Source: Herbiconiux gentiana
GTDB lineage: Bacteria > Actinomycetota > Actinomycetes > Actinomycetales > Microbacteriaceae
Length of the DNA stretch: 64,000 nucleotides
Direction of reading: 5' to 3'
Assembly: GCF_024978135.1 (NCBI RefSeq)
Contig: NZ_JANTEZ010000004.1
Location: forward strand, 248,001 to 312,000
The position numbers and the translations under genes were made by a program. Position 1 is the first letter of the stretch; each line of letters starts with the position of its first letter. Of the stretch, positions 6,439 to 20,235 are shown one piece after another. Below the pieces are notes generated by a model. That model saw only the letters and a list, made by a program, of their open reading frames with translations. It made no database searches and was not told the DNA's origin.

Positions 6439-7632
6439 ATGACCCTCTCCGGATCCTGGCAGCGCACCGCCCGCGGCGCCGGACTGCTGGCCCCCGACGG
6501 CCGGATCGCCTCGACCATCTTCGCCGAGATGAGCGCCCTCGCGGCCTCGACCGGCGCGATCAACCTCGGTCAGGGCTTCCCCGACGAGGCCGGCCCGGAC
6601 GAGGTGCTCGACGCGGCCCGCCGCGCGATCTCCGAGGGGGTCAACCAGTACCCGCCGGGCCCCGGCATGCCGGTGCTGCGCGAGGCCGTCGCCGCCCACC
6701 AGGAGCGCTTCTACGGCCTGAGCGTCGACCCCGCCGAGGTGCTCGTCACCGCGGGAGCCACGGAGGCCCTGGCCGCGACCGTCCTGGCGCTGGTCGACGA
6801 CGGCGACGAGGTCGTGACGCTCGAGCCGTTCTACGACGCCTACGGCGGACTGATCGCCCTGGCGCGAGGCCGTCACGTCACCGTGCCGCTGCGCGGCCAC
6901 GACTTCCTGCCCGATCACGACGAGCTGCGGGCGGCGGTCACCGACCGCACCAAGGTCATCCTGATCAACAACCCGCACAACCCCACCGGCACGGTGCTGC
7001 CCCTCGAGACCCTCGAGCTGATCGTCGAGTTGGCCCACGAGCACGACGCCGTCATCGTCACCGACGAGGTCTACGAGCACCTCGTGTTCGACGCCCCGCA
7101 CATCCCGGTCGCGTCGCTGCCCGGCGCCCGCGAGCGCACGGTCACCATCTCGTCGGCCGGCAAGACCTTCAGCGTCACCGGGTGGAAGATCGGCTGGATC
7201 GTCGCCCCGCGCGAGATCGTCACGGCGATCCTCGCGGTCAAGCAGTTCCTCACCTTCGTCAACGGTGCGCCGTTCCAGCCCGCCGTCGCCGTGGGGCTCG
7301 GCCTCCCCGACTCATTCTTCGACGGGATCGCCTCGACCCTGCGGGCGAAGCGCGACCTGCTGTCGCAGGGGCTGGTCAAGGCCGGGTTCGACGTCTCGTC
7401 GCCGCGCGGCACGTACTTCGTCGTCGCCGACGCCGCTCCGCTCGGCTACGCCGACGCGCGGGTGCTCTGCCGCGAGCTGCCGTCACTCGCCGGGGTCGTG
7501 GGGGTGCCGATCAGCGCGTTCTGCCACGAGGAGCTCGCGGGCGAGTACGCGTCTCTCGTGCGGTTCGCGTTCTGCAAGAAGACCGAGGTGCTCGAGCGCG
7601 CCGCGGCGCAGCTCGCCCGGCTCGGCCGCTAG
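6439..7632 (+). CDS. PLP-dependent class I/II aminotransferase (kynurenine/glutamine transaminase K type)
   Basis: 397 residues. Fold-type I aminotransferase with 'INLGQGFPDE' (41-50), 'NQYPPGPGMPVLREA' (69-83), 'NNPHNPTG' (177-184), 'TDEVYEHLVFD' (208-218) and the PLP lysine K242 in SSAGKTFSVTGWK; the C-terminal Arg segment 'LVRFAFCK' binds the substrate carboxylate. The QYxxxxGxPxLR pattern is typical of the KAT/GTK/YbdL branch, which transaminates Gln, Met, Kyn or aromatic amino acids, more than of DapC. A genuine DapC-like gene is at the right edge of the window, so a redundant lysine role is unlikely. It converges on an omega-amidase-like gene 13 bases away, a pairing that hints at glutamine transaminase/omega-amidase chemistry. 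Cytosolic. Confidence 0.85.
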   Translation: MTLSGSWQRTARGAGLLAPDGRIASTIFAEMSALAASTGAINLGQGFPDEAGPDEVLDAARRAISEGVNQYPPGPGMPVLREAVAAHQERFYGLSVDPAEVLVTAGATEALAATVLALVDDGDEVVTLEPFYDAYGGLIALARGRHVTVPLRGHDFLPDHDELRAAVTDRTKVILINNPHNPTGTVLPLETLELIVELAHEHDAVIVTDEVYEHLVFDAPHIPVASLPGARERTVTISSAGKTFSVTGWKIGWIVAPREIVTAILAVKQFLTFVNGAPFQPAVAVGLGLPDSFFDGIASTLRAKRDLLSQGLVKAGFDVSSPRGTYFVVADAAPLGYADARVLCRELPSLAGVVGVPISAFCHEELAGEYASLVRFAFCKKTEVLERAAAQLARLGR

Positions 7633-7645
7633 GCGCGCGGCGCTA

Positions 7646-8458
7646 CTAAGCCCGCGGCACCACGTCGAAGCGGCGCAGCGCGAGCGCCGGGTTCACCCGC
7701 CGCACCTCGTCGATGCGGGCCGGATCGACCCATGCCACCGCCACGTCCTCCCGCTCGCCGAGCGAGGCGATCGTCACCCCCATCGGGTCGACGACGAGGC
7801 TCGCGCCCACCCCGATCGGCGGCGTCTGGTCAGCGGCCGCGACGTAGATCGTGTTCTCGAGCGCCCGCGCCGTGACGAGCGAGCGCCAGTGGTGCTCCTT
7901 CAGCGGCCCGCGCACCCACTCGGCCGGCACCGCCACGAGATCGGCCCCGGCGTCGACGAGCCGGCGCGTCACCTCCGGGAACCGGATGTCATAGCAGGTC
8001 TGCAGCCCGATCGTCACACCCTGGATCGAGAAGGTCTCGGGCTCGGCGATCGCCCCGAGCTCCACCCAGTCGCTCTCGGTGGCCCCGAAGGCGTCGTAGA
8101 GGTGCAGCTTGCTGTAGGTCGCCACGAGTCCCTCGACCGGGTCGAGCGCCACGAGGCGGTTGGCGAAACGTCCCGGCTGCTCCGAGGTCGCGACGAGGCC
8201 GGCCACGACGTGCACGTCGAGCTCGCGGGCGAGGTCGGCGAGGGCCGCCACGAAGGGTCCGTCGACGGGCTGGGCGTGCTCGAGCATCCGCTCGCCGAGG
8301 GGGTCGACGAAGAACGAGGAGTATTCGGGGAAGACGACCAGCGAGGCGCCGCGGCCGACCGCGAGGCGGGTGAGCCGGTCGACGGCGGCCAGGTTGGCGT
8401 CGGTGTCGTCGCCGGGGGCGAACTGCGCGACGGCCACACCGAAGCCGGGCACGGTCAT
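7646..8458 (-). CDS. Carbon-nitrogen hydrolase (nitrilase superfamily amidase)
   Basis: 270 residues from the ATG at 8458. The Glu-Lys-Cys catalytic triad is clear: E45 (VVFPEYSSFF), K117 (YSKLHLYD) and C155 (LQTCYDIRFPE). The helix 'HHWRSLVTARALENTIYVAAAD' near 205 matches Nit1/Nit2-type amidases (deaminated-glutathione amidase or omega-amidase). It probably hydrolyses a carboxamide to acid plus ammonia. It is the third gene of a minus-strand set, 62 bases behind the SDR-P450 gene, and converges on an aminotransferase. It could serve either the P450 pathway or 2-oxoglutaramate removal; the sequence alone does not decide. Confidence 0.87.
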   Translation of the reverse strand: MTVPGFGVAVAQFAPGDDTDANLAAVDRLTRLAVGRGASLVVFPEYSSFFVDPLGERMLEHAQPVDGPFVAALADLARELDVHVVAGLVATSEQPGRFANRLVALDPVEGLVATYSKLHLYDAFGATESDWVELGAIAEPETFSIQGVTIGLQTCYDIRFPEVTRRLVDAGADLVAVPAEWVRGPLKEHHWRSLVTARALENTIYVAAADQTPPIGVGASLVVDPMGVTIASLGEREDVAVAWVDPARIDEVRRVNPALALRRFDVVPRA

Positions 8459-8520: not shown

Positions 8521-10992
8521 CTACCGCCGGGCGCGCTCCAGGGTCAGCGAGCGATAGGCCGGGATGAGCGCCCCGCGCTGCGCCCGACGGCCGGTGATCG
8601 TCAGGGGCGCCTCGGCGTGGGCGTCGAGCACGGCTCCGATTGTGCGCTGGATCTGGGTCATCGCGAGTGGGGCGCCGAGGCAGAAGTGCGCTCCGGCCCC
8701 GAACCAGAGCTGCTTGAGCGACGCGGCCGGGTTGGCGACCGGGTCGAAGCGTCCGGCGCCGCGGTTCGCGAGAAAGGTGGCCAGCACGAGGCGGTCGCCC
8801 GGATGCACGTCCCGCTCCCCCACCCGGGCCGCCCGCGCGACGCTGCGGAGCATCACGGGCGAGGGGGTCGTGACGCGCAGGCCCTCGCCGATCGCGGCGT
8901 CGAGCAGGCGCCGGTCGTGGGCGAGCACGTCGAGCCAGCCGGTGTCGGCGAGGATCGCGACGAGCCGCGGGAGGTAGGAGACGAGCGTCTCGGTGCCGGT
9001 GAGCACGAAGGCGCCGACCGCGCCCATGGCCTCCTCCTCCGAGAGGCCGAGGCCGCGCATCCGGCCGGGGAGGGTCTCGTGGACGGCGCCTTGTGCGGCA
9101 CCAGGTCGGGCGCCCGCGGCGGCGGTGGCGTGTGCGGCACCGGCCCCCGCGCCGGTGGCGGCCTCGGCGCCGGCGTGGGTCGCGGCCGCTGGTGCGACGC
9201 CGGCTTCGGCGTCGGGTGCGCAACCGGGTCGGGACCCCGCGGCGGCGGCCGGGGCCGGGGCCTCGCGGTAGGCGCGGCGGGCGTGCCGGGTCAGCTCGTC
9301 GAGCACCTCGCGGGCCTCGCCGACCTGCGCGGGCGTGAAGCGCGGCCGGGCCAGCGAGACGAACCCGGTGACCGCGGACACCCGGGCGAACAGCTCCTCC
9401 CCCATCACCCCGCGGTCCAGGCCCATGAGCCGGCTGATCACCTGCCCCGCGTACTCCCGCACCTCGGCCACGAGGTCGACCGCTTCCCCGGCGACGAGTC
9501 GGGCGGTCAGCCGGTCGGCGCCGTCGCCGATGGTGTCCTCGGTCAGAGCGCCCACGAAGCCCGGCGCGAAGAGGGGCGCCAGCCGGCGGCGCAGGGCGGC
9601 GTGATCGGCGCCCTCCATGTTGAGCAGCACCGACGGGCCGAGCACGGGCGTCCAGAGCTCGGCCGACGACCCCGGCCCCGTCTTCGTGAAGCTCTCGGTG
9701 TCGAGGAGCACCGCGCGCAGCAGCGCTGCGTCCGACACGATCACGCCGACCCGCGGCACCCGCAGCGTGGCACGCCTGATGCGCGCCAGCAGCGGGTAGG
9801 CGAGCGGATGCGCGGTGCGCTGCACCCGTTCCTCCCACCGCCGCTCGGCCCCCGGTACGACGCGGGGCGCGCTCGGTGGTCTCGAGGCCCGGTCGGCGGG
9901 CGGCGGTGGGGGCCGTACGGGCGGTTCGGGCGTTGGGGGTGGCGGCGGCAGCTCTGGCGTCGCGGCGGCCTGCGAACGCGACCCGGAGGCCGCGTCGGCG
10001 GCCAGGTCGGCGATCAGCCGCTCGAGGCCCTCGGCCGTGGACACGATCGGCTCCCCCAGCACCGCGCGCGTCGCCGAGTCGTCGAAGGTGGTCGAGAAGG
10101 CGTACACCGACACCGAGTACCGCGTGATCGGCGGCTCCCAGCCCCGCCTCGTGACCCGCCAGGCGAGTTCGACGGCGCCGGCCACGGCGAGCGCCACCCG
10201 ACGCGAGACCCGGCGTCTAGGTGCGGGCAGCCCTGCGGCGGCGATCATCCGGCGCACCACCGCCTGCAGCTCGACCGCCTCTCCCCCGGTGACGACGAGC
10301 GTGCGACCCACCGCGGCCGGCCGGGTCGCCGCGCGCACGAGGTACTCGACGAGGGTGTCGATGTGCACGAGGTCCGACCGCACGGGCTCCGGAGCCGCGA
10401 ACTCGGGCAGGCGCCCCGCCGCCGCGGCACCGAGCACCCGCGGCAGCAGCGTGCCGTCGCCCGGTCCGAACACCGCGCGCGGCCGCAGCACGACCCACTC
10501 GCCGCGGTAGTCGTGCACGAGGCGTTCGGCGGCGGCCTTCGTGGCGGCGTAGCGGCTGACGAACGGCGGATGCGCGGCTGCATCCGAGGGCACGTCGAGC
10601 TGATCGGCGGCGCGCGTCAGCACCGAGGCGCTCGAGACCAACACCACCCGCGGCGGCACCGGCAGCCGCGCGGCGTACGCGAGCACCGTGCGGGTGAGGT
10701 CGACGTTCTCGCGCTCGAACTCGGCGCGCGAGCCCCACGGCGAGCTGCGCGCGGCGGCGTGCACGATCACGTCGGGCGCCGGCAGCGCGTCGAGAGCGGG
10801 CGCTGCTCCGGCATCGGCGAGGTCGAGCACCCGGTACCCGGCCACCCCGCCCGACGGCCGCCGCCCCACCCCGATCGCCTCGAACCCCGCATCGCCCCCC
10901 AACCGCGCCAGCAACGCCCCGCCCACGAACCCCGACGCCCCGGTCACGAGCACCCGCACCGGCCCCCTGCCTTCGGGGGCGCCGCCGCTCAC
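8521..10992 (-). CDS. Fused NAD-dependent epimerase/SDR - cytochrome P450
   Basis: A single open frame of 823 residues from a GTG at 10992, overlapping the upstream gene's stop as GTGA. Residues 12-300 are an extended SDR: TGASGFVGG (17-25), AARSSPWGS and the catalytic YAATK. Then comes a Pro-rich linker (about 315-345, PELPPPPPTPEPP). The rest is a P450: 'TGTET' in the I helix, EGLR as the ExxR motif, and heme loop FGAGAHFCLG with Cys about 771. An Ala/Gly-rich insert of about 60 residues interrupts the P450 before the I helix (plus-strand about 9070-9265). An internal GTG at 9825 with GGAGG five bases upstream could give a free 434-residue P450 as a second product. Likely function: oxidation/reduction of an acyl or polycyclic substrate activated by the upstream ligase-like enzyme; no ferredoxin or reductase gene is nearby. 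Substrate unknown. Confidence 0.85.
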   Translation of the reverse strand: MSGGAPEGRGPVRVLVTGASGFVGGALLARLGGDAGFEAIGVGRRPSGGVAGYRVLDLADAGAAPALDALPAPDVIVHAAARSSPWGSRAEFERENVDLTRTVLAYAARLPVPPRVVLVSSASVLTRAADQLDVPSDAAAHPPFVSRYAATKAAAERLVHDYRGEWVVLRPRAVFGPGDGTLLPRVLGAAAAGRLPEFAAPEPVRSDLVHIDTLVEYLVRAATRPAAVGRTLVVTGGEAVELQAVVRRMIAAAGLPAPRRRVSRRVALAVAGAVELAWRVTRRGWEPPITRYSVSVYAFSTTFDDSATRAVLGEPIVSTAEGLERLIADLAADAASGSRSQAAATPELPPPPPTPEPPVRPPPPPADRASRPPSAPRVVPGAERRWEERVQRTAHPLAYPLLARIRRATLRVPRVGVIVSDAALLRAVLLDTESFTKTGPGSSAELWTPVLGPSVLLNMEGADHAALRRRLAPLFAPGFVGALTEDTIGDGADRLTARLVAGEAVDLVAEVREYAGQVISRLMGLDRGVMGEELFARVSAVTGFVSLARPRFTPAQVGEAREVLDELTRHARRAYREAPAPAAAAGSRPGCAPDAEAGVAPAAATHAGAEAATGAGAGAAHATAAAGARPGAAQGAVHETLPGRMRGLGLSEEEAMGAVGAFVLTGTETLVSYLPRLVAILADTGWLDVLAHDRRLLDAAIGEGLRVTTPSPVMLRSVARAARVGERDVHPGDRLVLATFLANRGAGRFDPVANPAASLKQLWFGAGAHFCLGAPLAMTQIQRTIGAVLDAHAEAPLTITGRRAQRGALIPAYRSLTLERARR

Positions 10993-12443
10993 GGCGACTC
11001 CCGCACGATGCGGCGGAGCTTCGCGGTGGGGTCGCGCGGCGTCCACGGGTCGTGCACGACGCTCGCCGAGCATCCGGCCGACTCGAGCACCCGCGCGAGC
11101 GCGCGGTCGACCCCCTGCCACGCCGCCGCGCCCACGTCGGGGCCGGCGCCGCCGGGCGAACCGCCGCCGGGGTGACCAACCGGCCCGACCGGCAGGTCGA
11201 GTCCGGCGTGACCCACCGGCCCGGCCGGCAGGTCGAGGGAGACGTGCAGCGTCGTCCCCCGCTGCACCACCCGCCAGTCGGCGAAGGCCGCCGACTCGAG
11301 GGCGAACGCCCGCCGCACCACGTCGGGGAACACGTCCACGAGCCGAGACCCGTCCCGCGCCGGCAGCCGCAGCACCGCATCGGCCCGGCCGTCGACACCC
11401 GCCAGCACGGCGGTGACTCGCCCGCACGCACACCGCTCCGGAGCCGCCGGGTCGACCCGCAGCACGTCGTCGAGCCGGTACCGCGCGATGATCTGCGTGC
11501 GCCGCTCGAGGTCGCTGACCACGGGCACGAACCGGGTGCGCTCCGCGTCCAGCCACTCGCGGTCGACGCGCACGGTCTCTTCGGCGAGGTGCAGCGCCCC
11601 CGCGTTGCACGGCAGCGCGAGCAGCCCCTCGGTCGCCTGGTAGACCTGACGCGGCCGCACGCCCCACGCCCGCTCGATGCGGTCGGTGGTGTCGGGGTCG
11701 AGCACCTCGGCCACCGACACCACGATCCGCGGCGCCACGATCCGCGGCGCCTCGATCCGCGGCGCCTCGACCCCGGCGGGCCCGGCGGCCCGGGCGAGCG
11801 CGTCGAGAACGGATGCGGGACCCACCAGCACCGTCACCCGCCCGGCCGCGGCGAGCCGCCGCACGAGCCCGTCGAACGGCTCGGTGAGGTCGTAGTACTC
11901 GAACCGCACCCGCGAGCTCGCGACGGATTCGTAGAGCCGGCCGCCCGCCCGCAGGAAGAACGCGATCGTGACCGGCGGCCGCCACGGCTGCAGCAGCTGC
12001 GCCACGGCGGCCCGATCGAGAACCCGGGCGAGCACCGTCCCGGCCCAGAGCATCCGTTCTCGAGGACTGACGAGGAAGACACCCCGTCGCCCCGAGGTGC
12101 CGCTGGACAGCCCGACGGTGAGGTCGCCCGCCACCGTCGGCGTGAAATCGCGCGACCGCTCGGCCGCCTGGGCCGCGGCGAGCGCCTCGGTCAGTCGCAC
12201 GCCGCGGGTGTTCATGCTGTCGAAGTGCTCGAGCAGGGCGGCCTTGTCCGTCACGGGGAAGTCGCGGGCCGCGAGGCCGGCCCAGTGCGGGGCGCGCCGG
12301 GCGTGACGGAGGAATCCGCGCATCCGTCGCCGCTGCCAGGCCTCGAACCGGCGCCGGCTGGCGAAGCGGTAGCCCCAGCGCGCCCGCACGAAGCGTGCGA
12401 CGAGCACGGCTCGCAGAGCGCGGTCGGTCAGCGGGCCACCCAT
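10989..12443 (-). CDS. Adenylate-forming enzyme, F390 synthetase-related (PaaK/CoF synthetase-like)
   Basis: 484 residues from an ATG. It resembles the distinct 'F390 synthetase-related' clade of ANL enzymes: the phosphate-binding loop VGLSSGTSGRRG (110-121), 'YQATEGLLALPCNAGALHL' (the A5-like motif, with Glu) and 'IIARYRLDDVLRV' (A7-like Asp). The C-terminal subdomain is short and repeat-prone. A 'CACGRV' pair of cysteines follows. A tandem APRI(E/V) repeat (encoded around 11730-11775) and a GPVGH repeat near the end look like replication-slippage expansions. It probably activates a carboxylic acid as acyl-AMP. GTGA overlap with the SDR-P450 gene argues for a dedicated pathway. Members of this clade have, to my knowledge, no established substrate. 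Confidence 0.8.
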   Translation of the reverse strand: MGGPLTDRALRAVLVARFVRARWGYRFASRRRFEAWQRRRMRGFLRHARRAPHWAGLAARDFPVTDKAALLEHFDSMNTRGVRLTEALAAAQAAERSRDFTPTVAGDLTVGLSSGTSGRRGVFLVSPRERMLWAGTVLARVLDRAAVAQLLQPWRPPVTIAFFLRAGGRLYESVASSRVRFEYYDLTEPFDGLVRRLAAAGRVTVLVGPASVLDALARAAGPAGVEAPRIEAPRIVAPRIVVSVAEVLDPDTTDRIERAWGVRPRQVYQATEGLLALPCNAGALHLAEETVRVDREWLDAERTRFVPVVSDLERRTQIIARYRLDDVLRVDPAAPERCACGRVTAVLAGVDGRADAVLRLPARDGSRLVDVFPDVVRRAFALESAAFADWRVVQRGTTLHVSLDLPAGPVGHAGLDLPVGPVGHPGGGSPGGAGPDVGAAAWQGVDRALARVLESAGCSASVVHDPWTPRDPTAKLRRIVRESP

Positions 12444-12501
12444 CCCGACAGGATACGCAGGCCGGGGCCCCGGGCGAGCGGGGCGACCCTAGACTGACCG
12501 C

Positions 12502-13254
12502 ATGGCGGCGATCATCGGGCACCTCCTCCCGCTCGCGCTCGGGGTGGCGCTCAGCTCGGTGCCGATCGTGGTGATGGTGCTGATCCTGCTGTCGCCGCGC
12601 AGCCGCTGGTCGGCTCTCGCCTATCTGATCGGGGCGATCGTCGGGCTCGCCGGGCTGACCGCCCTGTTCACCGCGATCGCCTCGCTGCTGCCCCCCGTGC
12701 CGCCGGCCGAGCCGAACCCGGTGATCGCGACGATCGAGCTCGCGATCGGGGCGGCGCTGCTCGTGCTGGCCGTCGTGCGCTTCGCCAGGGCGCGGGCCCG
12801 GGTGCGAGCGCGGCTCAGCTCGAGCGAGGGTCGGCAGGTGGATGCTCTGACCGACCCGGCCGGTTTGGCCAATCCGGCCGATCTGGCCGACCCGGCCGCT
12901 CCCCCCGCGTGGATGACCCGCTTGACCTCGCTCGGCCCCGTGCCCTCGCTCGGCGTCGGTGTGGTGCTGATGCTGCGGCCGAAGAACCTCCTGCTCACCA
13001 TCGCGGCCGGCGTGGCGATCACCGCCGGCTCGGCTCCGCTCGGCGACCAGGTCGTGGCGATCGCCGTCTTCGTCGCGCTCGGCATCTCGACCCTGGCGGT
13101 GCCGATCCTGTTCGCGCTGGTCGACCCGGCCCGGATGCTCGGGCCGCTGCGCGAGCTCCGCGACTGGATCGCCCGGAACAGCTCGACCGTGACCACCGTG
13201 GTGCTCCTCGTGCTCGGCACCGTCATCATCGGCAGCGGGCTCACCCGCTTCTGA
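12502..13254 (+). CDS. GAP/Sap family membrane protein (LysE-like fold)
   Basis: 250 residues. Six hydrophobic segments (about 5-30, 37-60, 70-90, 150-175, 185-205, 225-247) and the spacing of 'RPKNLLLTIAAGVAI' match the GAP family (GPL-addressing/sulfolipid-addressing protein), small transporters linked to export of glycolipids in mycobacteria. A hydrophilic loop (100-135) contains an ADLADPA-type repeat. It is divergent from the F390-synthetase-like gene with only 58 bases between starts, so the two probably share a regulatory region; export of that pathway's product is possible but unproven. Confidence 0.75.
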   Translation: MAAIIGHLLPLALGVALSSVPIVVMVLILLSPRSRWSALAYLIGAIVGLAGLTALFTAIASLLPPVPPAEPNPVIATIELAIGAALLVLAVVRFARARARVRARLSSSEGRQVDALTDPAGLANPADLADPAAPPAWMTRLTSLGPVPSLGVGVVLMLRPKNLLLTIAAGVAITAGSAPLGDQVVAIAVFVALGISTLAVPILFALVDPARMLGPLRELRDWIARNSSTVTTVVLLVLGTVIIGSGLTRF

Positions 13255-14546: not shown

Positions 14547-15799
14547 CGGGGCACCTCGATCAGCACCGTCGTGCCGCGCCCCGGAGAGGAGAAGACGCGC
14601 AGCGACCCGCCGACCGACCTGAGCCGGGTCTGCACCGCCTCGATGGCCGCCTGGGCGGGCGAGGGCGGGGTCGGTGGGGCTGCCGTCGCGAAGCCGTGCC
14701 CGGTGTCGGTGACGACGGCACGCAGCACGGAGTCGCCGCCGCTCACCGTCACGTCGGCGGAGCGCACCCCCGAGTGGTGCTGCACCGCCTCCAGGCAGTC
14801 CGTGACGGCGGCGGCGAGCGCGGCACGGGTGACCGACCGCCCAGACCCGGAGTCCTCGCCGTGCCAGGTGACGTCGAGGCCCTTCAGCCGACACCAGTCG
14901 CGCACGGCTGTCCAGGGGTCGCTCGGTTCGGCGTCATCGGCGGACGAATCTGCCGACTCGAGGGCGTTCGGCCCGCCATCCCCGCCCGAAGCATCCGCTT
15001 CCGGACCGCGCTGCGGCACGAGGGTGCCCGTGGTGCGCAGCTGTCGCAGCAGCGCGCTGTCGTTCGCCGCCTGATCGCGCAGGGTCTCGGGCGGCACGCC
15101 CTGCCCGGAGTGCGCGATAAGGGTGAGCGTCGCCAGCACGGTGTCGTGCATCATCCGCGCCCCGTAGCGCAGCTCGGCCTCGGCCTCGGTGGAGCGGCGC
15201 TCGGCGGCGTAGCTCTCGAGCAGGCGCTCCTGCCCCGTCTCGGCCTGGCGGGCGCTGCGGGCGAGCCAGAGGCCCGCTCCGATCAGGGCGGTCCAGCCTC
15301 CGGCGATCGCCAGCACGACGAACGGAGCCCGACCCGTTTCGGCGGTCACCACCCAGCCGAGCACGCTCACGGGCAGCACCGTCACCGCCACGATGGCGCG
15401 AAGCGACCGTAGTTCGGCCACCGCGACGAAGACGGAGGGCACTGCCATCGACGCCAGGGCCGTGACCGTGGCGAGGCTCGGGCTGTCGTCGACCGCGGCC
15501 CCCGGCAGCAGGAAGGTCGCGAGGGTGCCCAGCGCGGCGCCGTAGGTCAGCAGGGCGACCACCCGCACGTTCCGGGGGCGGAGCGCGAGGAAGCCGGCGG
15601 TCATCAGGAGCATGCCGACGAGCGTCGGCACGAAGGCGCCGAGCCGCGCGTACTCGGGCACCGCCAGGTTCACGGCGGCGCACACCGTGCCGATGACCCC
15701 GAACCGTCGGGCGCAGAGCACACCAAGTCGCAGGTGCTCGCTCGAACCCGGCGCCCCCGGCACCGAGGGCGCCTCCTGGGCCGGGCTGTCGATCGCCAT
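14543..15799 (-). CDS. Sensor histidine kinase with altered N box
   Basis: 418 residues; ATG at 15799. Several membrane helices between 30 and 180, a coiled linker (185-212), then a HisKA_3-like dimerisation helix with phospho-acceptor H218 (ARMMHDTVLATL). The ATPase domain keeps 'VVTDTGHGF' (G1) and 'SSPGRGTTVLIEV' (G2). The N box, usually E-x-L-T-N, reads DCLEA before VQHHSG, so the Mg-coordinating Asn appears to be Ala. An acidic Ser/Asp-rich stretch lies around 265-290. It is divergent from a NarL-type response regulator 91 bases away and overlaps the membrane partner downstream. Activity may be weak, phosphatase-biased, or rely on another residue. Confidence 0.8.
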   Translation of the reverse strand: MAIDSPAQEAPSVPGAPGSSEHLRLGVLCARRFGVIGTVCAAVNLAVPEYARLGAFVPTLVGMLLMTAGFLALRPRNVRVVALLTYGAALGTLATFLLPGAAVDDSPSLATVTALASMAVPSVFVAVAELRSLRAIVAVTVLPVSVLGWVVTAETGRAPFVVLAIAGGWTALIGAGLWLARSARQAETGQERLLESYAAERRSTEAEAELRYGARMMHDTVLATLTLIAHSGQGVPPETLRDQAANDSALLRQLRTTGTLVPQRGPEADASGGDGGPNALESADSSADDAEPSDPWTAVRDWCRLKGLDVTWHGEDSGSGRSVTRAALAAAVTDCLEAVQHHSGVRSADVTVSGGDSVLRAVVTDTGHGFATAAPPTPPSPAQAAIEAVQTRLRSVGGSLRVFSSPGRGTTVLIEVPR

Positions 15800-15890
15800 C
15801 TGTCGACGATAGCGCGACGGATCGGTCCCGTCGGCGATTGCCCCGGAAGGGGGGACGGTCGGGCACTCGGGGCATGACAGGCTTGACGGC

Positions 15891-16556
15891 ATGGCCCGGG
15901 ACGTAGTGCGCATCGCGATCGTCGACGACCACCGGATGCTCCTCACCGCCCTGACCGAGTGGATCAAGAGCGTCGGCGACGACATCGTCTGCGTCGCCGC
16001 GGTCACCACATGGCCCGAGCTGCTCGCCCACCCCGAGTTCCCCGTCGACGTCGTGCTCCTCGACCTCGACCTGAAGGACGATCTGCCGGTCTCGATCAAG
16101 CTGCGCGCTCTCGACACGGCCGGGGTGAAGACCGTGATGATGAGCACCTACTCCGAGCCCGCCGTGGTGCGGGAGGCCCTGGCCGCCGGCGCCCACGGCT
16201 ACATCGTGAAGAGCGAGGGTGCGGAGACGATCGTCGTCGCCATCCGCCTGGCCCTCGCCGGCAGCCGTTTCGTCTCGCCGCTCGTCGGGCTGCAGCTCGA
16301 CGCCGCACCGGCGCTGACGAAGCTGAGCGCCCAGGAGCGCCGGGTGATGGCCCTGTACGGTTCGGGCGAGTCGGCCAAACGCATCGCCACCGTGCTGCAG
16401 ATCACCGAGCAGACCGCCAAGTCGCACCTCAAGCGCCTGCGGGCGAAGTACCGGCTGGCCGGCATCGACGTCGGCTCGAAGGTGGCGCTGCGCAACCAGG
16501 CCATCCGCGACGGTCTGATCCTGCTCGACGACACGGGCCGCACCCCCGGCTCCTAG
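15891..16556 (+). CDS. NarL/FixJ-type response regulator
   Basis: 221 residues. The receiver domain has IVDDH (10-14), phospho-acceptor Asp58 in VVLLDLDL, the Ser/Thr switch 'MMSTYS' and the conserved Lys in 'GYIVKSEG'. A LuxR-type helix-turn-helix occupies about 150-205 ('LSAQERRVMALYGSGESAKRIA', 'TAKSHLKRLRAKY'). It is a DNA-binding transcription factor, presumably phosphorylated by the divergent kinase at 14543-15799; the 91-bp space between them is the likely autoregulated promoter. The regulon is unknown. Confidence 0.92.
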   Translation: MARDVVRIAIVDDHRMLLTALTEWIKSVGDDIVCVAAVTTWPELLAHPEFPVDVVLLDLDLKDDLPVSIKLRALDTAGVKTVMMSTYSEPAVVREALAAGAHGYIVKSEGAETIVVAIRLALAGSRFVSPLVGLQLDAAPALTKLSAQERRVMALYGSGESAKRIATVLQITEQTAKSHLKRLRAKYRLAGIDVGSKVALRNQAIRDGLILLDDTGRTPGS

Positions 16557-16558
16557 GG

Positions 16559-16612
16559 CGCGTCGCCGAGCGCCTTCGGGTATCTGTTGGGCGATCAACT
16601 CGCGGCGACGCG
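16559..16612 (+). terminator. Inverted repeat downstream of the response regulator
   Basis: A perfect 10-bp inverted repeat (CGCGTCGCCG / CGGCGACGCG) with a 34-base spacer begins 3 bases after the regulator's stop. The long loop and lack of a T run make it a weak terminator candidate. Confidence 0.35.
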
Positions 16613-16694
16613 AGCCTGACGGGGATGATGACCAGTCAGGCCCCTGTCGGCCGCTCCAGGAACGGGGGTACTGCCGCAATTCGCAGCCCCACCG

Positions 16695-16907
16695 ATGGAA
16701 TTCCCATCGCAGCACTACGCGTATCTCCTCGACGACGCCCACTTCGACCGCTCCTACGCCACGATCACCGATCGCGGCTTCGATCACTGGGCAGACCCCC
16801 AGCGATCGAAGCCGGGAGAGATCAACCACGAGCACGGCGGACGAGGCGTCAATCTTCTCGACCCCTCAGGCCACTATCTCGAGCTGATCACCCGGCCCTA
16901 CCTCTAG
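16695..16907 (+). pseudogene. Truncated VOC-family (glyoxalase/bleomycin resistance) protein
   Basis: 70 codons matching only the C-terminal half of a small VOC protein: 'SQHYAYLLDDAHFD', then 'FDHWADP', 'PGEINHEHGGRG', and the metal-ligand end 'LLDPSGHYLELITRPY'. The usual N-terminal half with its first metal ligand is missing, and the sequence upstream back to the response regulator does not restore it in any frame I checked. Its last bases overlap the stop of the converging beta-amylase gene. Best read as a decayed remnant left by a deletion. Confidence 0.75.
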
Positions 16908-18457
16908 TGGAAGTCGCGGAGGAACCGCTCGAACTCGCTCCGCCCCGGCGCACCGGCCCTCGACACGTCGGAGATGCGCAGCACCGTGAGCCCGCGGTAC
17001 AGCGATGGTGACCCGCCGAAGGCGTCGCGGATGTGCGACCAGCCGACCGTGCTGGGCGACCCCGCGCTGCCGAGGTTCGACGCCAGGGCGTTCTCGCCCT
17101 TCAGTGTGACGTGCGCCTTCTGGGCGGCCGTGCCGACCCAGGACACGAGCGAGGCCGCGTCGGAGTAGGCGTGGTCGGAGCCGTCCCATTCCCGGCCGTC
17201 GGGCATCTCGAGCGCCGTGAAGTGCAGGGTGATCGGGTGCGTGGGCGTGGAGACGCCGTCGCCCGTGGTCTCGAGGTCGTGCACGAGCCCCATCAGGCCG
17301 TCGTAGCCGTGCCCGGTCGAGGCGTCGTTGAACGCCTGATCGGTGTGCACGAGCCCCGCCGCGATCTCGGGCACGCGCCGCATCGGGCTCGTGGCCATGG
17401 TCTGCCAGTGCACCCCGGGCACCTTGAGGCCGAGCGGCACCGCCGCGAACGGCCCGTCGAAGGCGCGGATGGCCTGCACCATCACGTCGTGCCCGTGCGA
17501 GAGCAGGCTCTCGCTGTACCAGCGGGTGAAGTCGCGCCCGTACTGGATGGAGGCGTACGAGCCCGAGGTGATGAAGCGGTCGTGGTCGGTGGGCGGGGTG
17601 ATCGCGGCGTAGCTGAGGCCCGGGATCTTCCAGGCCGTGCCGACCGCCGCCACCGACCCGTACTTCGCGACCGCCCAGTCGGCGAAGTCGCGCACGGCCG
17701 AGTCGGTGTAGCTCTGGAAGGTGCCGCGGTTCGGGTAGGCCGCCGGGCGGCCGGGGGCCGTGTCGTCGTGATGGGCGTAGGAGGGGTAGCGCAGCTCGCC
17801 GGCCGGGCCGGTGCCGATCGTGATCTCCTGGATGCGCCCCCGGTAGTCGGTGGTGCCGCTGCTGTAGTGGTCTTCGAACGCGTTCATGAAGTCGCGCATG
17901 TCGTCGAGGGCCCGGTCGACGCCGACGCCCCACGGCGCCACCGCCTCGCGGTTCTCGTTGCCGTACTCGCTGCGGTAATAGGCGTCGATGGGCGCCGCGG
18001 TGCACGGGCCGTAGATGCCGCAGATGCGGTCGGGCTCCCACACCCACGACGGGATGGGGATGGTGGTGCACGCGTCGTCGACGTTGCCGCCGCACTGGTG
18101 GAACGACATCATCGGCACCAGGTCGAGCCCGGCCGAGGTGGCCGCCGCGAACAGCTTGTCGTAGTACGCCCAGTCGAAGCCGCCCCGCGTGGGCTCGGCC
18201 TTCCCCCACCAGACGTCGACCGCCAGCGCGTCGACCCCCTGGGCGTCGGCCACCGCGAGTGAGGCGGTGAAGGCCCGCCAGTCGGGGCCGTCGCTCGCCC
18301 AGTCCTCGACGAACAGCGGCGCCATGACGTTGACGGTGGCGGCGGCACCCGGTGCGGCGGAGGCCGGCGGGACCGGGGCCGTGGAGGTGAGACCGGCGGT
18401 GAGGAGGGCGGTGGCCGCGAGTGCGAAGCCCACGCGGGGGAGGATGCGAGTTGCCAT
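16904..18457 (-). CDS. Secreted beta-amylase (glycoside hydrolase family 14)
   Basis: 517 residues with a Sec signal peptide (MATRILPR, hydrophobic core, cleavage near ASA-AP about 35). GH14 landmarks are present: 'VMAPLFVEDW', 'GVDALAVDVWWGKAEP' (about 75-90), 'MMSFHQCGGNVDD', the catalytic acid Glu in 'GPAGELRYPSY' (about 210) and the second Glu in 'LKGENAL' (about 465). These enzymes release maltose from non-reducing ends of starch-like glucans. No starch-binding domain is visible; the protein ends soon after the barrel. Upstream is an M28 peptidase in the same orientation, 50 bases away. Together with the GH63-like glucosidase at 21648 it suggests use of external alpha-glucans. Confidence 0.9.
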   Translation of the reverse strand: MATRILPRVGFALAATALLTAGLTSTAPVPPASAAPGAAATVNVMAPLFVEDWASDGPDWRAFTASLAVADAQGVDALAVDVWWGKAEPTRGGFDWAYYDKLFAAATSAGLDLVPMMSFHQCGGNVDDACTTIPIPSWVWEPDRICGIYGPCTAAPIDAYYRSEYGNENREAVAPWGVGVDRALDDMRDFMNAFEDHYSSGTTDYRGRIQEITIGTGPAGELRYPSYAHHDDTAPGRPAAYPNRGTFQSYTDSAVRDFADWAVAKYGSVAAVGTAWKIPGLSYAAITPPTDHDRFITSGSYASIQYGRDFTRWYSESLLSHGHDVMVQAIRAFDGPFAAVPLGLKVPGVHWQTMATSPMRRVPEIAAGLVHTDQAFNDASTGHGYDGLMGLVHDLETTGDGVSTPTHPITLHFTALEMPDGREWDGSDHAYSDAASLVSWVGTAAQKAHVTLKGENALASNLGSAGSPSTVGWSHIRDAFGGSPSLYRGLTVLRISDVSRAGAPGRSEFERFLRDFH

Positions 18458-18507
18458 CCCCCCACGCTAGGGACGTGGAGCCACCGCCCTACCTGAGTAC
18501 TTTCCAC

Positions 18508-20235
18508 CTACTCCTGGTCGTTCGTCGCCCCCGGTCGGGAGACCGCCTGGCGGCGCATCCGCACCACCACGAGCACGATGCCGGCACCGAGCGCCAGCAC
18601 GGCGAACGGGATGACGGCGAGCGCCCCGGACACGTCGGCACCGGTCGCGGCGAGCGACCCGTCCCCGCCCGATCCCGGCGCCGGAGCGGCGGTCGGAGGA
18701 GCGGGCGAACCGGTCGGCGCAGGCGTCGCCGTCGGCGTCGGCGTGGGCGTCGGGTCGACCCCGGGCCGGATGGCCGACAGGTCGTCCGACAGCGACGCCG
18801 TCACCGAGGCGATCGCCCCGAGGTTGATGCCGAGCGCCTCCGTGCTGATGTTCGCGATGTCGTCGCCCGCACCGTGGTAGTTCGGGTCGTACGCCTCACC
18901 GGCGGTGCCGCCGAACAGCTCGGCCTCCCCCGCGGTCTTGATGTCCTCGGCGCCGGTGAACAGGCCGGAGGCCGGCACCCCGTTGTCGATGAACGCCTGG
19001 TAGTCGCTGCGGCCGTCGAAGTTCGTGCCCTGGTGCGCCTGCCCGATGCCGTCGAAGTAGTCGGTCAGCGCCTTCTCGGTCGCGATCGAGCCCTCGGGGA
19101 TGTTGACCGTCGGGTCGACCTCGGTGTCCGAGCCGTCGGCGTCGTAGACACCGATGATGTAGTTCGGGGAACCGACCATGTCGAAGTTGAGGTAGGTCGC
19201 GATCTTCCCGAGCTCCTCCTCCGACAGGCTGTAGACGTACTCGGTCGAGCCGATCAGGCCGACCTCCTCGGCGCCCCACCAGCCGAAGCGCACGGCGTGG
19301 TCGAGCTGGCCCGAGTCGGCGAGCTGCACGGCGGTCTCGAGGATCGAGGCCGAGCCGCTGCCGTTGTCGTTGATGCCGGGGCCCGCGGGCACCGAGTCGA
19401 GGTGCGCACCGAGCATCACGACGTTCTCGTGGTCGTCGGCGTTCGGCGTCTCGGCGACGATGTTGAAGGTGTCGACGGTGCTGGTCGTCTGCTCGATGGT
19501 GAGGTCGACGAGCGCCGGCCCCTCGGCGATGGCGGCGAGCGCGTCGGCGCCCTCCTCGGGGGTCAGCCCGACACCCGGGACGAGACCGTCGACCGGGTCG
19601 CCGTAGGTGCCGTTCAGCGCACCGGCCTCGTTGTTGTAGACGAGGATCGCGACCGCGCCGGCGGCGCCGGCGGCGAGCGACTTCTGCGAGAAGGCGCACT
19701 CGCCCCGGCTGACGACGGCGACCTTGCCCGTGGCGTCGACCCCGTCCCAGGCAGCGGCGTCGCAGCCGAGCGGCGTGGCGGGCGCCACCAGCTCGGCGTC
19801 GACGATGCCGCCGGCCGGCGTGCTGGGCGTGAACTCCATCACCACGCGCTCGGGTGTGGCCGGGTCGAGCTCGCCCGTCGCGGGGTCGTAGGTGCTCGAG
19901 GTGCCCAGCAGGTCGATCGAGAAGGCCTGCACCGACTGCGTCGACGCCTGGAAGTCCTGCCGCACCGGGTCGTAGCCGGCCGCGCGCAGCACGCTCTCGA
20001 CGTACTGGCCGCTCAGCTCATAGCCCTCGGTGCCGATGGCGCGGGTGCCGTCGTTGGCGTCCGCGATGTCCTGCAGGGCCTGGAGGTGGCCCATCACGGC
20101 CTCCACCGTGACCCGCTCCTCGAGATCCGACGGGTCGACGGCGTACGCGGCCGAGGCTCCGAAGCCGGCGACCCCCGCGACCATCACCCCCGTTCCGATC
20201 CCGATCGCTGCGAGTCTCCGTCGACGTCTGATCAC
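18508..20235 (-). CDS. Cell-wall-anchored M28 family metallopeptidase with PA domain
   Basis: 575 residues; GTG start at 20235 with AGGGGAG upstream. N-terminal signal peptide (RRRRR then hydrophobic core, ASAAYA cleavage about 30). A PA insertion (about 125-255) is followed by the zinc peptidase core: 'GAHLDSVPAGPGINDNGSG', 'WWGAEEVGLIGS', 'NFDMVGSPN' and 'YHGAGDD' supply His, Asp, Glu/Glu, Asp and His. The C-terminus has a Pro/Thr stalk, an LAATG motif, a hydrophobic helix and RMRR, a typical class-E-sortase LAXTG anchor. It likely removes amino acids from extracellular peptides. No sortase gene is in the window. Confidence 0.9.
   Translation of the reverse strand: MIRRRRRLAAIGIGTGVMVAGVAGFGASAAYAVDPSDLEERVTVEAVMGHLQALQDIADANDGTRAIGTEGYELSGQYVESVLRAAGYDPVRQDFQASTQSVQAFSIDLLGTSSTYDPATGELDPATPERVVMEFTPSTPAGGIVDAELVAPATPLGCDAAAWDGVDATGKVAVVSRGECAFSQKSLAAGAAGAVAILVYNNEAGALNGTYGDPVDGLVPGVGLTPEEGADALAAIAEGPALVDLTIEQTTSTVDTFNIVAETPNADDHENVVMLGAHLDSVPAGPGINDNGSGSASILETAVQLADSGQLDHAVRFGWWGAEEVGLIGSTEYVYSLSEEELGKIATYLNFDMVGSPNYIIGVYDADGSDTEVDPTVNIPEGSIATEKALTDYFDGIGQAHQGTNFDGRSDYQAFIDNGVPASGLFTGAEDIKTAGEAELFGGTAGEAYDPNYHGAGDDIANISTEALGINLGAIASVTASLSDDLSAIRPGVDPTPTPTPTATPAPTGSPAPPTAAPAPGSGGDGSLAATGADVSGALAVIPFAVLALGAGIVLVVVRMRRQAVSRPGATNDQE

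Follow-up and report, generated by a model that had tools for sequence, protein, structure and literature searches.

The closest described relatives of the locus analyzed here are the ole operons of Xanthomonas and Micrococcales (oleABCD or oleA-oleBC-oleD), which combine an OleA-like condensing enzyme of the KASIII type, an OleD-like short-chain dehydrogenase/reductase (SDR), and an adenylate-forming enzyme. A set consisting of OleA, a glycosyltransferase, OleC, a cytochrome P450, and OleD occurs in Actinoplanes atraurantiacus and has a predicted beta-lactone product; the portion of that study devoted to this cluster proposes Claisen condensation, reduction, hydroxylation, glycosylation, and beta-lactone closure, and interprets clusters without OleB as beta-lactone producers (PMC7064751). 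Here, we examine a 64,000-nucleotide stretch of the genome of the soil actinobacterium Herbiconiux gentiana (contig NZ_JANTEZ010000004.1, positions 248,001 to 312,000; hereafter, the window), in which an F390 synthetase-related enzyme, an SDR, and a P450 are encoded together, the latter two in a single open frame. We consider it moderately probable that this locus is a shortened ole-type operon in which the F390-like enzyme takes the role of OleC, the fusion stems from loss of a KASIII gene, and a canonical OleA encoded elsewhere may contribute its product.

The genes in question lie on the reverse strand. The gene for the 484-residue F390-like protein (positions 10989–12443, family TIGR02304) overlaps at a GTGA (10989–10992) with an 823-residue SDR::P450 frame (8521–10992), and a nitrilase-fold hydrolase gene (CN_hydrolase, 7646–8458) begins 62 bp beyond the latter. 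A first-pass annotation had recognized these features from the nucleotide sequence, and family searches agree with it; its grouping of carboxylate activation, SDR redox chemistry, and P450 oxidation in one operon is upheld by the conserved gene order described below. Positions 12400–12560 yielded neither a sigma-70-like promoter nor a terminator.

The same annotation had treated the gene set as complete, but comparison with relatives reveals that it lacks KASIII and a zinc alcohol dehydrogenase. We compared 16 Herbiconiux genomes, including that of the window (G000), using the F390-like protein as the query. The F390-like gene is present in 16/16, and 11/16 have the full order F390-like, SDR, KASIII, P450, zinc alcohol dehydrogenase, and nitrilase, an order also present in a genome from another Microbacteriaceae genus (G026). 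Because a further genome (G288) lacks only the alcohol dehydrogenase, KASIII stands between separate SDR and P450 genes in 12/16. The operon of G306 is interrupted by a contig end, with a KASIII-like match near the nitrilase on another contig. KASIII and the zinc alcohol dehydrogenase, which relatives carry between P450 and nitrilase, are both missing from three genomes, namely, that of the window and two others (G304 and G300). Whole-genome searches of these three returned no KASIII orthologue (best match 31%), with control matches of 75% in G288 and 100% in G155, the query's own genome. Unlike oleABCD, the window form thus has no condensing enzyme in the operon, and the operon KASIII is absent from both window and genome.

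In a tree built from five proteins of the operon and its flanks, the three genomes form one clade (support 1.00), with the window nearest G304 (0.87). Their SDR–P450 junctions differ. The SDR of G304 ends at a stop, and its P450 begins in another frame at an overlapping GTG; in G300, all that remains of the SDR is the start and about eight codons from its C terminus, continuous in frame with the P450; and the window has a Pro-rich linker (residues 335–382, positions 9847–9990) at the KASIII site of relatives. Judged from these sequences, the simplest history is a single KASIII loss, followed in the window by the joining of SDR and P450 into one frame, and we infer that the loss occurred only once. 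G304 is unfused, and the G300 scar may derive from the window's fusion or have a separate origin.

Both halves of the fused protein carry the motifs of their families. The SDR domain (9979–10959) matches Pfam Epimerase (1.6e-25) and has the GxxGxxG and YxxxK motifs of OleD and other extended SDRs (GASGFVG, 10921–10941; YAATK, 10537–10551); its best NCBIfam match by E-value is OleD, a 2-alkyl-3-oxoalkanoate reductase (132.8 bits). The P450 domain (8524–9846) matches Pfam p450 (5.6e-7) and contains an ExxR motif (EGLR, 8875–8886), the I-helix sequence GTETL, and a heme-Cys motif (FGAGAHFCLG, 8674–8703). An AlphaFold2 model of positions 8524–9867 has the P450 fold, with a mean predicted local distance difference test score (pLDDT) of 82. 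Among the best 50 Foldseek rows for this model, we found broad P450 matches only (template modeling score 0.61–0.68 by query length) and no substrate hint. A 60-residue Ala-rich insertion in the P450 (9082–9261) is longer than in 19 aligned relatives and is disordered in the model (pLDDT <50); insertions of about 10–30 residues occur at the same site in several other Herbiconiux species and are nearly absent from the other aligned genera.

There is no in-frame ATG, GTG, or TTG between codon 317, located in the SDR, and codon 390, located in the conserved beginning of the P450; the P450 would therefore be made only within the fusion, unless a rare start codon is used. GC fractions at codon positions 1/2/3 are 0.79/0.58/0.94 in the SDR, 0.80/0.58/0.93 in the P450, and 0.83/0.83/0.79 in the linker, which is GC-rich at positions 1 and 2 because it is rich in Pro and Ala. 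A chance frame is ruled out by homologues in 16/16 genus genomes and by the conserved gene order.

A sequencing or assembly error that joined a gene pair really split as in G304 is very unlikely. The linker holds C/G runs (CCCCC, CCCCC, CCCC, and GGGGG) whose length of four to five bases could favor such an error, and the GTGA-coupled SDR and P450 genes of G304 would fit it; however, at this junction in G300, SDR codons share the reading frame of the P450, and the window linker is free of stops in both alternative frames, so that shifting it by one base would not restore an SDR stop like that of G304. The first-pass annotation had further supposed that the fusion enforces channeling in an undescribed pathway, a purpose to which the single open frame, the P450 without its own start, and the intact active-site motifs of both halves could be taken to point. 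We carried out the count of fusions among relatives that it had proposed, over 72 loci (55 from a P450 search, 16 from the genus and family, and the window, with eight genomes counted twice). SDR and P450 are both present in 60/72 loci, and they share a frame in only 1/60, the window itself; relatives have the genes separate, coupled, or without the SDR. Moreover, the sister without the SDR (G300) keeps its P450 under constraint, and the linker differs in composition from its coding flanks. Self-sufficient fusions such as P450 BM3 and CYP116B likewise hold a P450 and another enzyme in one polypeptide, but there the partner is a reductase feeding electrons to the heme, whereas the window protein has an SDR, and we know of no SDR that feeds electrons to a P450 heme. 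A purposeful, channeling fusion is hence highly improbable in our view. The fused frame is real; from the sequences compared, the simplest reading is that it arose as a side effect when KASIII was lost from what is now a reduced ole-type operon, and not as a channeling device.

The F390-like protein scores 321.5 bits against TIGR02304 ("F390 synthetase-related protein"), above the cutoff of 251.9; its only other NCBIfam match is DVU1553, and a Pfam search with the window protein alone gave no match. It contains SSGTSG (12090–12107), YQATEG (11625–11642), YRLDDVLRV (11454–11480), CACG (11421–11432), and AKLRRI with a C-terminal Lys, K475 (11007–11024); SSGTSG, YQATEG, YRLDD, and K475 are invariant across 10/10 aligned rows. 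We take these to be the P-loop, the A5/A8-like motifs, and the C-terminal Lys that are hallmarks of ANL (adenylate-forming) enzymes, to which the protein belongs by its motifs. A profile search links the family to a phenylacetate-CoA ligase (PDB 4r1l, 2.6e-7). We rejected membership in the OleC sequence family (PF00501/NF045786), as there is no Pfam match and no OleC match in NCBIfam; as far as sequence goes, the protein is at most an analog of OleC, not a member of its family. The gene contains tandem repeats of 15 bp × 4.0 (11720–11778) and 36 bp × 2.0 (11167–11237), whose units are multiples of three and encode the peptides APRI(E/V) and LDLP(A/V)GPVGH. A phylum search for TIGR02304 matched 135/396 genomes, with one match above the cutoff, the window's own; these matches were kept out of the neighbor counts. 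The first-pass annotation knew of no assigned substrate for this clade, and our search of the open library likewise found no paper assigning a function or substrate to the F390 synthetase-related family. The section of one report that covers a D. psychrophila cluster lists an acyl-CoA ligase-like gene annotated "F390 synthetase" and guesses at a role in glycerol attachment (PMC2649909).

A connection to OleC emerges from the wider distribution of the P450. With the P450 domain as the query, we found 55 actinobacterial loci and scored a gene as present for matches above 90 bits. Nine of the loci contain an F390-like gene and 38 an OleC-like AMP ligase, with no locus containing both; the other eight have neither, and contig ends truncate at least three of these (L066, L069, and L089). 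Two loci, from Fodinicola (L101) and Nonomuraea (L117), have KASIII, P450, and SDR, with neither an OleC-like nor an F390-like gene found nearby. F390-type and OleC-type loci both tend to contain KASIII (8/9 and 35/38) and SDR (9/9 and 32/38), whereas a GT2 glycosyltransferase is found in 0/9 vs 36/38 and an alcohol dehydrogenase in 6/9 vs 0/38. The OleC-type loci share the P450 context and, in those 36, the glycosyltransferase with the Actinoplanes atraurantiacus cluster as far as it is described in the section cited; the F390-type loci depart from it in having no OleC-like gene or glycosyltransferase (0/9) and in their alcohol dehydrogenase (PMC7064751).

The actinobacterial F390-type rows group as a single clade of the KASIII tree (100/97), which joins OleC-type rows from Agrococcus, Galactobacter, and Arthrobacter (100/99), within the OleC type overall. 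Forcing the OleC-type rows into one clade was disfavored (approximately unbiased test, p-AU 0.017) in a comparison made after the first tree and with a very distant outgroup. The first clade tests were confounded by rows of unknown type inside the groups, and the tree was rebuilt without them; the final version left out rows of ≤310 residues, L085, L097, L101, L117, L119, and every row lacking both F390 and OleC. The P450 tree was built without two of its 55 rows (≤330 residues), and the first KASIII tree without one of 49. Together, the mutual exclusion of the two genes and the nesting of the F390 type suggest that the F390-like enzyme replaced OleC, whose position in an ole-type (beta-lactone/olefin) pathway it most likely occupies. 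The full Herbiconiux operon resembles oleABCD in its OleA-like KASIII, OleD-like SDR, and adenylate-forming enzyme; it differs in having an F390-related enzyme for OleC, plus a P450 and a zinc alcohol dehydrogenase, and no OleB-like gene was seen among its genes. The operon KASIII aligns at Cys, His, and Asn with PDB entry 3row, labeled 3-oxoacyl-[ACP] synthase III (ACP, acyl carrier protein), which we take to be Xanthomonas OleA with these as its catalytic residues.

Similar company surrounds F390-like genes on plasmids. We examined 13 of 32 plasmid records with an F390-like match, chosen to spread over genera, using tblastn for two that were unannotated. KASIII, SDR, a metallo-beta-lactamase (MBL)-fold hydrolase, and the F390-like gene lie within about 6 kb in 11/13, and all four are spread over about 10 kb in 1/13. 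A family sample gave an F390-like match in 17/299 genomes; SDR, hydrolase, F390-like gene, and KASIII occur together in L042 and L043, and a weak match (L046, 27%) has none of the other three nearby. These cassettes share the adenylating family, KASIII, and the OleD-like SDR with the full Herbiconiux operon, but they contain a lactonase-like MBL hydrolase, and no P450 is annotated in those examined; the best NCBIfam match of the Paraburkholderia hydrolase is AttM, an N-acyl homoserine lactone lactonase, below the cutoff. On an E. coli plasmid (L030, 6152–13033), genes for PAP2, a sterol-desaturase-like protein, and an acyl-CoA desaturase come after the KASIII–SDR–hydrolase–F390 cassette. The F390-type locus of Psychromicrobium silvestre (L092, 5256–12063) comprises the F390-like gene, a gene that fuses ATP-grasp and GNAT domains in one 761-residue protein, KASIII, P450, and SDR; in the Paraburkholderia and Paenibacillus cassettes, the two domains have a gene each.

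Outside the window, the H. gentiana genome contains a canonical oleA-oleBC-oleD operon (G000, contig C16, approximately 15052–19810; L159, 7053–11811). Its OleA is the best distant KASIII match in the genome (PRK09258, 442.5 bits, cutoff 285), and the next genes encode an OleB–OleC fusion and OleD. The proteins from G304 and G300 are about 99% (OleA), 86–91% (OleBC), and 90–92% (OleD) identical to those of the window genome, and a MoxR-like gene preceding oleA is 98% identical among the three. Across the remaining 13 Herbiconiux genomes, matches to OleA reach at most 35% and are mostly operon KASIII or FabH-like genes, and OleBC matches reach at most 33%. The canonical operon is thus present in exactly the three KASIII-less genomes, and KASIII and canonical OleA are mutually exclusive in 16/16, G306 being counted by its KASIII-like match near the nitrilase. 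Cross-supply of a beta-keto acid by canonical OleA is plausible.

The remaining operon genes are under purifying selection. Ratios of nonsynonymous to synonymous substitution rates (dN/dS; Nei–Gojobori, seven chosen pairs) within the KASIII-less clade are 0.13–0.19 for the P450, 0.25 for the SDR (one pair), and 0.27–0.29 for the F390-like gene, with 0.08–0.10 for the flanking aminotransferase. The corresponding values are 0.14–0.15, 0.21–0.22, and 0.17–0.18 in the two closest full-operon pairs and 0.20–0.25, 0.34–0.38, and 0.22–0.30 in two more distant ones. Constraint on the P450 is about the same as in full operons. These values argue against free decay, although part of the signal may predate the loss of KASIII.

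Taken together, these comparisons allow a route to be proposed. By analogy with OleA, KASIII in the full operon would condense two acyl chains to a beta-keto acid, which the SDR would reduce to a beta-hydroxy acid, as OleD does; the F390-like enzyme would adenylate this acid and, like OleC, perhaps close a beta-lactone. The P450 would hydroxylate a chain, and the alcohol dehydrogenase could oxidize it further. KASIII and the alcohol dehydrogenase would then have disappeared in the common ancestor of the window, G304, and G300, leaving the SDR and P450 of the window to become continuous through the Pro-rich linker as a one-piece protein, and canonical OleA elsewhere in the same three genomes could supply the beta-keto acid.

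Several observations weigh against this proposal. We know of no activity for any of these proteins. The SDR falls far under the OleD cutoff (NF042422, 132.8 vs 580), as does, at 291.6 bits, the canonical OleD of the same genome. The operon KASIII is below all cutoffs (PRK09258, 157.9 vs 285) and, in a PDB search, is slightly closer to FabH-type entries than to 3row. The AlphaFold model of the F390-like protein is poor (mean pLDDT 54), and its gene may be slightly relaxed (0.27–0.29 vs 0.17–0.18 in the closest intact pairs). Since 8/9 F390-type loci come from Herbiconiux genomes already among the 16, the ninth being that of Psychromicrobium, the F390/OleC exclusion rests on few lineages and perhaps one switch. 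The P450 tree leaves Psychromicrobium and Herbiconiux unjoined, on long branches, and the Psychromicrobium SDR groups with SDRs of OleC-type clusters, whereas that of Herbiconiux does not; for the latter, tree and scores disagree between an origin in MBL-type and OleC-type clusters. Plasmid record L033 has an F390-like gene with no KASIII or SDR nearby. Because the three KASIII-less genomes form one clade, their match with the ole operon counts as one evolutionary event.

The F390-like enzyme might instead act first, activating a free fatty acid as acyl-AMP or acyl-CoA for KASIII, with a modified fatty acid or lipid rather than a beta-lactone as the product. Kinship with phenylacetate-CoA ligase fits this role, as do the desaturase, sterol-desaturase-like protein, and PAP2 phosphatase of the E. 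coli plasmid cassette, and under this scheme the reduced operon could function despite the loss of KASIII. We nevertheless think it unlikely, though the most credible of the alternatives: the OleC slot is indicated by the finding that F390-like and OleC-like genes never share a locus (0/55) and by the nesting of F390-type within OleC-type clusters in the KASIII tree, and the ligase in that slot (P0009), besides matching PRK09274, matches the olefin beta-lactone synthetase model, albeit far below its cutoff (118 vs 900). That the locus is a decaying remnant heading for loss, with no present function, seems improbable. Stepwise gene loss within the KASIII-less clade, the tandem-repeat expansions in the F390-like gene and the Ala-rich P450 insertion, and the somewhat raised dN/dS of the F390-like gene would all be compatible with decay, but no stop or frameshift was seen in the F390-like and P450 genes of the three species, dN/dS is far under 1, and the motif residues are retained. 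We return, then, to a shortened ole-type operon. A bolder extension is doubtful at present. In it, the F390-related family of Proteobacteria, Bacillota, and actinobacteria would be a non-orthologous counterpart of OleC that activates beta-hydroxy acids and perhaps closes them to beta-lactones; in this Herbiconiux clade, genomic OleA would have replaced KASIII, and the fused SDR::P450 would tailor canonical ole products.

The first-pass annotation had included the nitrilase in its three-gene operon; yet 16/21 other-genus Microbacteriaceae genomes carry an orthologue (≥50% identity), and none of these 16 has an F390 match, the only one among the 21 (E 7.4e-4, with stops) lying outside them. Its best NCBIfam match is deaminated glutathione amidase, below the cutoff (231 vs 355 bits), and it is, on this distribution, probably a family-wide conserved neighbor outside the pathway. 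The divergent gene on the forward strand (12502–13254), which the first-pass annotation assigned to the GAP family and tentatively credited with product export, encodes a PF11139 SfLAP membrane protein ("Sap, sulfolipid-1-addressing protein") and keeps its position in 16/16 genus loci. A class I/II aminotransferase gene (6439–7632, forward strand), which served as a synteny anchor, keeps its place in all genus loci except the one cut by a contig end.

A fusion that looks designed but is most simply a leftover of gene loss calls for caution in inferring channeling from fused genes. Of greater value is the link that these comparisons suggest between the F390-related family and the OleC step: "F390 synthetase-related protein" has been a label lacking any assigned reaction, and comparison of relatives provides a first testable role for this family.

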